Made by a program: the position numbers and the translations under genes
The notes under the pieces: model-generated
Seen by the model: only the letters and a program-made list of their open reading frames with translations
Database searches by the model: none
Told to the model about the DNA's origin: nothing
Shown: positions 8,993 through 25,043 of the stretch, piece after piece
Layout of the letters: every line of letters begins with the position of its first letter
Numbering within the stretch: the stretch's first letter is position 1
NCBI GenBank assembly: GCA_025056215.1
Contig: JANWWC010000002.1
Location: forward strand, 62,001 to 126,000
Length of the DNA stretch: 64,000 bases
Reading direction: 5' to 3'
From: Cytophagales bacterium
Lineage (GTDB): Bacteria > Bacteroidota > Bacteroidia > Cytophagales > Flammeovirgaceae

Positions 8993-9023
8993 TTGCATCA
9001 AACTCATAAAATCTCTATTTTTG
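8993..9023 (+). promoter_or_regulatory. Bacteroidota-type promoter P1 for the arginine-rich leader
   Basis: TTG at 8993-8995 and TATTTTTG at 9016-9023 (consensus TAnnTTTG) are separated by 20 nt, within the range seen for the Bacteroidota primary sigma factor. Transcription would start near 9030, about 12 nt before the leader ORF. Confidence 0.7.
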
Positions 9024-9041
9024 TTGAGAACATGAAATCTT

Positions 9042-9152
9042 ATGAGAATGCGCATACCAATTTATAAAAAGCTCTTCTTAAGAAGCACCTCCCAAGGTGT
9101 GCGCTTCGTTTCTTCCTTTTTCAGACGACGACCTCGACGCCCCCGCGCTTAA
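9042..9152 (+). CDS. arginine/proline-rich leader peptide (candidate attenuator ORF)
   Basis: A 36-codon ORF with ten arginines, six of them in the last nine residues (RRRPRRPRA, then TAA). A consensus promoter ends 19 bp before the ATG. The stop codon abuts a small hairpin, and the next gene is a GNAT protein of the type linked to arginine synthesis in Bacteroidota. Clusters of codons for a pathway's end product at the end of a short leader ORF are the hallmark of ribosome-mediated attenuation. The alternative is a chance ORF: an overlapping ATG at 9032 opens only an 11-codon frame without arginine. No database family is known to me. Confidence 0.55.
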   Translation: MRMRIPIYKKLFLRSTSQGVRFVSSFFRRRPRRPRA

Positions 9153-9239
9153 AGCTATCTTGAGCTTTTAAAATTTTACTGCGGATTCTCTTTTGGCGTG
9201 TTCAATTTTCCACTTTCTAATGTTCGTAAAAGTTTTTTT
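9151..9239 (+). promoter_or_regulatory. leader RNA region after the Arg codons, candidate attenuator
   Basis: Directly after the leader stop, AAAGCT (9151-9156) can pair with AGCTTT (9163-9168) across a 6-nt loop, followed by TAAAATTTT. Further on, ACTTT pairs with AAAGT just before a run of seven T near 9232-9238. Either could act as a terminator whose folding depends on where the ribosome stalls. Both stems are short and AT-rich, and I could not define a convincing mutually exclusive antiterminator by eye. Confidence 0.35.
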
Positions 9240-9265
9240 AGTCTATGAATTCATTTATTAATCCG

Positions 9266-9298
9266 TTGAATCGTCTTTTATCAACACAACTAATTTTG
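9266..9298 (+). promoter_or_regulatory. Bacteroidota-type promoter P2 directly upstream of the GNAT gene
   Basis: TTG at 9266-9268 and TAATTTTG at 9291-9298 with a 22-nt spacer match the phylum consensus. The start would be near 9305, 36 nt before the ATG at 9341. It lies downstream of the leader ORF and hairpins, so it would bypass attenuation. It also shows that an upstream in-frame ATG at 9245 is unlikely to be the start. Confidence 0.6.
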
Positions 9299-9340
9299 AT
9301 ATGGTATTTAAAACATGAAAAAGTAGAACACACAACAACT

Positions 9341-10081
9341 ATGAGTAATACATCTAAAATCGAGTATTTAGTAGCCAACGAATCGCATACGAAGTATGCT
9401 TCGGAAGTTTCGCGCATGATGGAGGTTGCAGCGCGCCAAAGAGGCACAGGAATTTCTAAGCGCCCTCCCGAAGTAATTGCCCAAAAAATGAGAGACGGAA
9501 AAGCTATCATTGCGCTAGATGGCGATAAAATTGTAGGGTTTTGTTATGTGGAAGCATGGGAACAGCGCAAATTCGTTTCTCACTCAGGTTTAATTGTTCA
9601 TCCAGATTATCGCGGAGGTGGAATTGCTAAAAAGATTAAAACAATGGCTTTTGAACTTGCAAGGCAAAAATACCCTGAAGCCAAAATTTTTGGTATTACT
9701 ACTAGTCCTGCTGTTCTTAAAATCAACTCAGATTTAGGTTATAGGCCAGTAGCTTTTTCGGAACTTACGAAAGACGAAGCTTTTTGGGAGGGTTGTGAAA
9801 GCTGTGTAAATCACGATATCCTTACAAGAACTGAGCGAAAAATGTGTTTATGCACAGGTATGCTATACGACCCTCAACAAAAAGAAAAACCTAAATCTCT
9901 CTTTTTAGGGCTCTTAGAACGTTTTCAACGCTTTAAAACGAGTGTACTTTTCAAAAAATTTGGTGTAAAACCTGATGACGGCAAATCAGAAGAAGAATTT
10001 AAACTTTCTGAACTACCAGAAATCAAAGAACAACAAGCGCGCAAAAAAGAAAGAGAAGAATTATCAAAAATTTATTTTTAA
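9341..10081 (+). CDS. GNAT N-acetyltransferase, probable N-acetylglutamate synthase type
   Basis: 246 residues from ATG 9341 (MSNTSKIEY...); the longer frame from 9245 adds 32 residues that overlap promoter P2. The GNAT acetyl-CoA loop is visible as HPDYRGGGIAKKI (about residues 87-99), preceded by KAIIALDGDKIVGFCYVEAW. The N-terminal VANESHTKYASEV...RGTGISKRPPE resembles the Bacteroidota GNAT family usually encoded next to argininosuccinate synthase and proposed to acetylate glutamate for arginine synthesis. Here it is not followed by arg genes. The arginine-rich leader upstream independently hints at the arginine pathway. A long basic C-terminal tail (about 190-246) lies outside the core fold. 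Substrate is inferred only. Confidence 0.7.
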   Translation: MSNTSKIEYLVANESHTKYASEVSRMMEVAARQRGTGISKRPPEVIAQKMRDGKAIIALDGDKIVGFCYVEAWEQRKFVSHSGLIVHPDYRGGGIAKKIKTMAFELARQKYPEAKIFGITTSPAVLKINSDLGYRPVAFSELTKDEAFWEGCESCVNHDILTRTERKMCLCTGMLYDPQQKEKPKSLFLGLLERFQRFKTSVLFKKFGVKPDDGKSEEEFKLSELPEIKEQQARKKEREELSKIYF

Positions 10082-24970: not shown

Positions 24971-24992
24971 ACAAAGAAATAGTTTTCAAAAT

Positions 24993-25020
24993 AAAAAACT
25001 CTCCTCTTACGAGGGGAGCC
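24993..25020 (-). terminator. rho-independent terminator after atpH
   Basis: On the minus strand CTCCCCTC pairs with GAGGAGAG (seven of eight positions) around a GTAA loop, followed by six T. It lies 24 bp beyond the atpH stop and separates the ATP synthase genes from the FtsL-like gene. Confidence 0.8.
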
Positions 25021-25043
25021 TATTTTTAGAGCAATCATAAATC

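Follow-up and report, generated by a model that had tools for sequence, protein, structure and literature searches.

The window analysed here, 64,000 nucleotides (nt) of a Cytophagales bacterium (assembly GCA_025056215.1, contig JANWWC010000002.1, positions 62,001 to 126,000 of the forward strand; G000:C10:62001-126000 in our numbering), forms part of a 2.83-Mb genome and carries a gene for a GNAT acetyltransferase preceded by a promoter-like site (promoter P1), a 36-codon open reading frame (ORF) with an arginine-rich end, a small hairpin (H1) and a weak stem followed by a T run. All of these pieces, listed in an initial annotation made from the sequence alone, are present (Table 1). Comparison with related genomes leads us to interpret the short ORF as an arginine-sensing leader that probably controls the GNAT gene through ribosome-mediated attenuation at its arginine codons, a reading drawn from sequence to which we assign a probability of roughly 0.8.

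Table 1. Features of the GNAT locus, in window coordinates.
Feature	Position	Strand	Basis or remark
Promoter P1: TTG plus TATTTTTG, Bacteroidota −33/−7 type	TTG 8993-8995, box 9016-9023	+	Sequence
Leader ORF, 36 codons: MRMRIPIYKKLFLRSTSQGVRFVSSFFRRRPRRPRA then stop; tail ...FFRRRPRRPRA	9042..9152	+	Sequence; Arg-ended ORFs in relatives
Strand 1: early codons of the leader; predicted partner of strand 4	9044..9074	+	Predicted pairs
Control codons AGA CGA CGA CCT CGA CGC CCC CGC GCT, immediately 5' of the stop	9123..9149	+	Sequence
H1 hairpin AAAGCU(AUCUUG)AGCUUU; begins within the stop codon, overlaps strand 4	9151..9168	+	Fold; proposed antiterminator
Strand 4: sequence after the stop, predicted to pair with strand 1; then UUUU 9191-9194; predicted terminator-like 3' arm	9162..9190	+	Predicted pairs
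AAAAG plus T7 run (T7 9233-9239), weak stem 5' of it	9228..9239	+	Stable hairpin ending there not found
Internal promoter-like site: TTG 9266-9268 plus TAATTTTG 9291-9298	9266..9298	+	Sequence; would bypass the leader
GNAT acetyltransferase; heads an arg operon in a relative	9341..10081	+	Pfam Acetyltransf_7/1/10

The final nine residues of the leader, RRRPRRPRA, comprise six arginines, two prolines and one alanine, the arginines being encoded by one AGA, three CGA and two CGC codons. In a census of the short ORFs of the window (12–70 codons, six frames; 1215 in all), six arginines among the last ten codons were found in the leader ORF alone; five occurred in three other ORFs and three in 38. 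H1 has a predicted energy of −4.5 kcal/mol, and 1.25% of mononucleotide shuffles were equally stable.

Three samples of relatives were surveyed: a relatives set of 58 genomes, of which 40 held the GNAT gene and from which 30 loci were fetched; a group of named loci, the best 80 of the 594 found in the genome collection; and an even draw across the phylum of 148 genomes at least 90% complete, of which 61 carried GNAT, the genome of the window included. A tail was counted where an ORF of 12–70 codons, within 350 nt upstream of GNAT, had at least three arginines among its last ten codons. Counts were made on 107 loci, omitting the same-contig duplicates L043, L069 and L044, and on 60 loci of the phylum draw, omitting L128 (the window's own genome); the two sets overlap at least in L133/L134, whose leader peptides are those of L031/L032, and loci related by descent do not count as independent events.

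The survey of orthologous upstream regions for which the initial annotation had called finds an Arg-ended ORF recurring well above the level in shuffles, on the reverse strand and at other promoters. Counted tails stand on the forward strand of 71 of the 107 loci, against 11 on the reverse strand and 7.5 (standard deviation (SD) 2.5, maximum 15) after dinucleotide shuffling; with at least four arginines required, the figures are 45, 2 and 1.0. In the phylum draw, 41 of the 60 loci have at least three arginines on the forward strand and 10 on the reverse (31 and 1 with at least four). At the GNAT promoters of the named loci, 59 of 77 reach three arginines and 42 reach four, against 13 and one of 96 non-GNAT promoters of those loci. 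When the other 19 amino acids were counted in the same way over the 107 loci, only proline (23 vs 5.1) and lysine (22 vs 9.3) rose, and the rise in lysine is absent from the phylum draw (2 forward, 12 reverse). The −7 box of Bacteroidota promoters has the consensus TAnnTTTG, and of the 71 loci with a leader, 43 have a TA(2-3)TTTG box close to the start of the leader, against 17% in mononucleotide shuffles.

What is kept in these tails is chiefly arginine: they differ among families (VRPFAPRRRP, RIPRRR, RFRLPHPRN, RRRRYFFRV and RRPYMPRA, each running up to the stop codon), and the arginine codons vary between loci while the residue is retained. The end of the window leader, RRPxxPRA, could be aligned by eye, codon by codon, with RRPYMPRA of L139 and L140 and RRPILPRA of L153. 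Among 14 hand-picked, partly overlapping pairs of leaders from relatives (compared ungapped and anchored at the 3' end, the window leader not among them), the ratio of non-synonymous to synonymous substitution (dN/dS) was below 1 in 11 (0.25–0.87). The two outcomes that the initial annotation had named as fatal to its proposal, orthologues lacking any Arg-rich ORF and a lack of coding constraint, were looked for, and the proposal survived this test.

A second line of evidence comes from the arginine repressor ArgR. No ArgR was found in any of the 58 genomes of the relatives set, that of the window included, in a search whose control was positive in 8 of 14 named genomes; with its own genome giving no ArgR match, the locus was not filed among ArgR-controlled genes. 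Eight named loci were chosen for an ORF of about 160 codons just upstream of GNAT. In every one of them it encodes ArgR and matches both Pfam domains of that protein; L082 is one, and the other seven come from the 18 named loci that lack a counted tail. Of the 77 named genomes, 50 were searched throughout: the 18 whose loci have no counted tail, that of L082, and 31 that do carry a tail. ArgR matches were confined to the eight; the 11 remaining tail-less genomes gave none, nor did any of the 31 with a tail. Leader and ArgR are mutually exclusive in the named set. At the thresholds used, neither was present at L036, L037, L039, L045, L059, L077, L081, L084, L093, L096 and L102, and at L037 an Arg-ended ORF lies further upstream. 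In two of these loci, L045 and L059 (Labilibaculum), the region 45–400 nt upstream of GNAT holds successive hairpins, each followed by a T run, a series that is possibly another control system. Across the phylum draw, GNAT (E up to 1e-20) was found in 61 genomes and ArgR in 54, with both only in G140; the latter was discarded as a genome with both, its ArgR match being marginal (25 bits over 45 positions, with an internal stop).

The gene itself fits arginine synthesis in relatives. As the initial annotation had stated, related GNAT genes sit with argG: by a count of coordinates, 32 of the 40 genomes in the relatives set that hold GNAT have the argG and GNAT matches within about 2 kb of each other, and in Muricauda (L041) the order is GNAT, argG, argC, proC, argD, proA. 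In the genome of the window, GNAT has a single match and precedes a peptidase gene; argG is on a different contig (C11), and argG, argC and two OTC-family genes all lie away from GNAT. An in-frame extension of 32 codons at the N terminus runs from an ATG at 9245 to 9340, outside the part aligned with homologues. This ATG looks unlikely as the GNAT start, on modest evidence, because similarity to homologues begins near residues 1–16 of the form starting at 9341.

Leaders in relatives fall at two distances from the gene. Two Arg-ended ORFs in series occur at 10 of the 107 loci (L057, L060, L063, L070, L073, L079, L088, L091, L097 and L099), with ends 207–224 nt and 63–76 nt upstream of the point where the first GNAT residue aligns. 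At L057 and L070, terminator-like hairpins of −19.2 and −14.0 kcal/mol (scored without a shuffle control) lie about 200–245 nt upstream of GNAT, overlapping the arginine codons of the first, far leader and with T runs directly after them. At L025–L028, about 170–210 nt upstream of GNAT, a hairpin and T run precede the last two arginine codons of the leader (..FFRR, then stop), opposite to the usual order.

In Flavobacteriaceae the near leader carries an RNA element of two hairpins. Hairpin P1 overlaps the arginine codons, often with the stop codon in its loop (CGCCC-GUAA-GGGUG; CGCAC-GUUU-GUGCG in L057), and hairpin P2 is a stem with a bulged A closed as GG-UGNGU-CC (GA-UGAGU-UC in L098, L106 and L109). 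In 14 of the 45 P1-P2 sequences, picked for one bulge type (set A3), P2 has changes on both sides in four of its eight pairs, and 94.4% of cells pair, against 19–61% when the strands are slid; double changes are absent from hairpin P1 in the same set. RNAalifold, applied to all 45 sequences with the bulge ignored, supports only two pairs. Set A1 took in eight loci out of 30 fetched from the relatives set, and RNA model R1 was set aside for a misaligned consensus with two pairs. Model R2, run on ten flavobacterial genomes, gave one match at E < 1e-7 in eight of them, each at the GNAT leader by its coordinates, and, in the genome of L106, a match with E 0.012 that lies at its GNAT leader; matches away from the leader were seen in the genome of L096 (0.125) and as a second match in that of L098 (0.276). 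Scoring covered 150 of the 846–1941 candidates per genome, and more copies are possible.

This covarying element was seen in the near leaders of some Flavobacteriaceae; when R2 was run over 55 sources, the window among them, it did not pick up P1-P2 at the window leader. The sole R2 match in the window (minus strand, 24973-25026, E 0.1) was taken as chance, and a hairpin UUGG-CGUGU-UCAA near 9193-9206 looked too weak on inspection by eye. Among other leader types, seven of 64 leader loci (0.1 expected) have, at the position of the hairpin, a UACGU loop on unrelated stems, for a loop pattern (URNGU) picked after it had been seen in the data; hairpins with this loop stand shortly past the leader stop at L015, L020, L068, L072, L078, L101 and L136. 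A search of Rfam 15 gave no match in the window (gathering threshold) or in six loci of relatives (E up to 0.5), and the locus was not classed as a T-box or known riboswitch, no matching Rfam 15 family having been found.

Codon choice in the tails differs from that of other frames nearby. Leader-tail arginines are encoded by CGC (46%), CGT (28%), AGG (11%), CGA (7%), CGG (5%) and AGA (3%), against AGA 29%, CGT 19%, CGA 16% and CGC 15% in downstream open frames of at least 200 codons at these loci, frames that are not curated genes. The bias persists in far, A-type leaders (CGC 46%, CGT 17%, AGA 5%), in leaders lacking hairpin P1 and, once the last three codons are set aside, in near, B-type leaders. 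This preference for CGC and CGT points to arginine being sensed through the tRNA that reads CGN codons.

By sequence, the locus has what is expected of a leader attenuator (a promoter-like site and short translatable ORF upstream of a biosynthetic gene, a cluster of end-product codons and, in relatives, conserved coding), and its placement in this class draws on the clade-wide Arg tail, the residue kept as codons change, the arg operon in L041 and the exclusion of ArgR. In such a device, a ribosome travelling just behind RNA polymerase would read the supply of arginyl-tRNA at the arginine cluster before the stop codon. When arginine is low, the ribosome would stall at this cluster and GNAT, for arginine synthesis, would be expressed; when there is enough, the leader would be completed, the downstream RNA would refold and GNAT expression would fall. 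Translation of the leader, the sign of the response and its action on transcription are what we infer from this arrangement.

Predicted pairing suggests how the window might achieve this. In a ribosome-free leader, strand 1 would pair with strand 4 and the gene would be off. If a ribosome halted at the first arginine codons and others queued behind it over strand 1, H1, which occupies part of strand 4, could form and strand 4 would be kept from pairing, so that the gene would be on, in agreement with the sign to be expected. A ribosome at the stop codon would cover the 5' arm of H1, taking footprint sizes from general knowledge. The duplex of 9042-9113 with 9153-9200 has an energy of −29.4 kcal/mol, against −19.2 (SD 3.4; 0 of 500 as low) with the 3' side dinucleotide-shuffled and −19.4 (SD 3.4; 3 of 500) with the 5' side shuffled, odds that are flattering, as the region was picked after the fold had been viewed. 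A-type leaders of relatives have the same strand 1:strand 4 topology. The pairing of early codons with post-stop sequence is a feature of A-type leaders, to which that of the window belongs: its mean z-score is −1.43 for the 23 ORFs whose end lies over 150 nt from GNAT and −0.2 for 56 nearer ones. In a strand-swap test of A-type leaders, cognate strands averaged −13.1 against −8.8 (SD 3.4) for non-cognate ones. Another candidate, pairing of an arginine-codon strand (9136-9146) with 9181-9200, was rejected for its wrong sign, as a stall would free the terminator.

Several observations weigh against an attenuator of this kind. The whole fold of 9030-9200 has a z-score of only −1.56 and the U run behind strand 4 is just UUUU; the strand 1:strand 4/H1 wiring in the window is therefore only a proposal, and one that we think somewhat less likely than not. 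In the strand-swap ranking, the cognate pair came first in only 4 of 14 cases and L063 ranked ninth. No canonical terminator (a G+C-rich hairpin with a U run) was found in the window between leader and GNAT, so the locus was not filed in the his/trp-type sub-class with an intrinsic terminator. The second stem and T run listed in the initial annotation are probably not a terminator: a scan of the window leader region found no credible one, and no stable hairpin ends at the T7 run 9233-9239. Nor did a scan of the other loci, run without a shuffle control, reveal a uniform terminator.

Conservation has gaps, too. There is no counted tail at 36 of the 107 loci and 19 of the 60; in the same family, L003 and L005 end in KPLRR, with two arginines, and L007 in KPLRQSSFPGF, with one; and in Flavobacterium L096 and L102 the ORF contains HRVFRRVF and its end is not Arg-rich. 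Conversely, a few counted tails are probably chance, among them those of L082, which lies inside its ArgR gene, and of L053, whose sequence is 68% G+C. The dN/dS ratio exceeds 1 in three of the 14 pairs (L029/L030, L031/L032 and L071/L085, the last spoiled by an unaligned indel). Apart from G140, the phylum-draw genomes with ArgR lack this GNAT at E 1e-20, so that this draw does not bear on the alternation of leader and ArgR. In the genome of the window, no Arg leader was found at argG, argC or the two OTC-family genes (argB, argD, argE, argH and carAB were left unchecked), and the internal promoter-like site at 9291 would bypass the leader.

Of the alternatives, the one that survives best accepts an Arg-sensing leader and places its output in Rho-dependent termination or in translation of GNAT; it is compatible with the sensing step favoured here, and we consider it somewhat unlikely. 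It would account for the missing canonical terminator in the window, for the lack of a U run after the P1-P2 element in most of the printed sequences and for the composition of the last 40 nt before GNAT, which are C-rich and G-poor (C 613, G 246 over the 71 leader loci). That C excess, however, lacks control 5' regions, window positions 9153-9340 contain 30 C and 24 G, and the A-type leaders of relatives do have T runs and terminator-like arms.

Less probable by some distance is arrest by the nascent chain, in which the tail (R-P-x-x-P-R-A-stop, or RRRP-stop in Flavobacteriaceae) would stall at termination with bound arginine or a related metabolite, so that high arginine represses. The fungal arginine attenuator peptide, TnaC and SpeFL sense a free ligand in this way, through the nascent chain, and TnaC ends in Arg-Pro-stop. 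These are likewise short regulatory ORFs, and the position of the arginine codons immediately before the stop, the enrichment of proline in the tails and the sharing of RRPxxPRA by the window and loci of other families all suit such a mechanism. Proline codons, however, are partly accounted for by hairpin P1; the tails are diverse (RIPRRR, KPLRR, RFRLPHPRN and RRTFVRV, for instance), with mainly arginine in common; and the preference for CGC and CGT points to codons, beyond residues alone. The diversity of the tails, together with the codon bias, speaks for sensing through tRNA in this case.

We regard as equally improbable that the leader is a relic of little effect, GNAT having left the arg operon to be driven by the internal promoter at 9291. 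The separation of GNAT from argG and argC in the genome of the window agrees with this, as does the match of the internal site to the promoter box, a match rare among leader loci. The internal promoter suspected in the initial annotation is present as a promoter-like site at 9291-9298 and is not conserved: TAnnTTTG stands between leader and GNAT at only 4 of the 71 leader loci, the window among them. Set against a relic are the six-Arg tail, the intact ORF, the promoter-like site before it and a strand 1:strand 4 pairing beyond that of shuffles. As for a chance, untranslated ORF over a GC-rich patch, short ORFs are common and 38 of the 1215 in the window have three arginines in the tail, but conservation, the controls and a six-Arg tail unique in the window contradict it and make it very improbable indeed.

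Taken more widely, an arginine-sensing leader ahead of GNAT suggests a scenario to which we give about even odds: that Bacteroidota and Balneolaceae without ArgR use Arg-codon leaders, sometimes two in series, the first codons of the early leader forming a terminator arm and the late leader being fused to an arg-specific RNA element whose P2 has a URNGU pentaloop kept across families on unrelated stems; that leader and ArgR have been swapped in evolution; and that P2 perhaps docks a factor carrying the signal to polymerase or ribosome.

Leader-peptide attenuation, with runs of end-product codons, controls the his, trp, leu, thr and phe operons. The arrangement described here resembles these attenuators in its own promoter, short ORF, end-product codons near the stop, biosynthetic gene downstream and predicted competing hairpins. 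It differs in that arginine would be sensed, in its occurrence in Bacteroidota and Balneolaceae, in the lack of a canonical terminator in the window, in the terminator-like 5' arm within early leader codons and, in some Flavobacteriaceae, in tandem leaders and a separate P1-P2 element.

Within the same phylum, clues to leader-peptide attenuation ahead of amino-acid operons have been described in Flavobacterium psychrophilum, whose conserved structured 5' elements include pheA and hisG, with arg not named in the main-text part of that source (PMC9723704). Small ORFs reminiscent of attenuation leader peptides lie in long 5' untranslated regions of Bacteroides thetaiotaomicron, BT_4401 being an example, and an arginine leader goes without mention in the part of the source available (PMC7366714). 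The carA gene of Pseudomonas aeruginosa likewise has a leader peptide before an arginine/pyrimidine gene, but in Proteobacteria and with attenuation tied to pyrimidines, arginine acting transcriptionally, according to the available portion of the source (PMC4997734). Switches between sensing systems for one gene have been discussed in a text whose main part, so far as available, does not contain the terms arginine, Bacteroid or Flavobacter (PMC2965389), and leader-type motifs for other genes appear in the accessible part of a further study (PMC8632094). The open-access literature searched yielded no account of an arginine leader in members of the Bacteroidota, and the supplement of PMC9723704 may hold an arg entry.

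If correct, this reading would explain by what means many Bacteroidota could control arginine synthesis when they lack the textbook repressor, and would extend end-product leader peptides to arginine and to Bacteroidota. It would also provide a natural example in which a protein repressor and an RNA/ribosome device take the same place, with P1-P2 as a directly testable RNA element.

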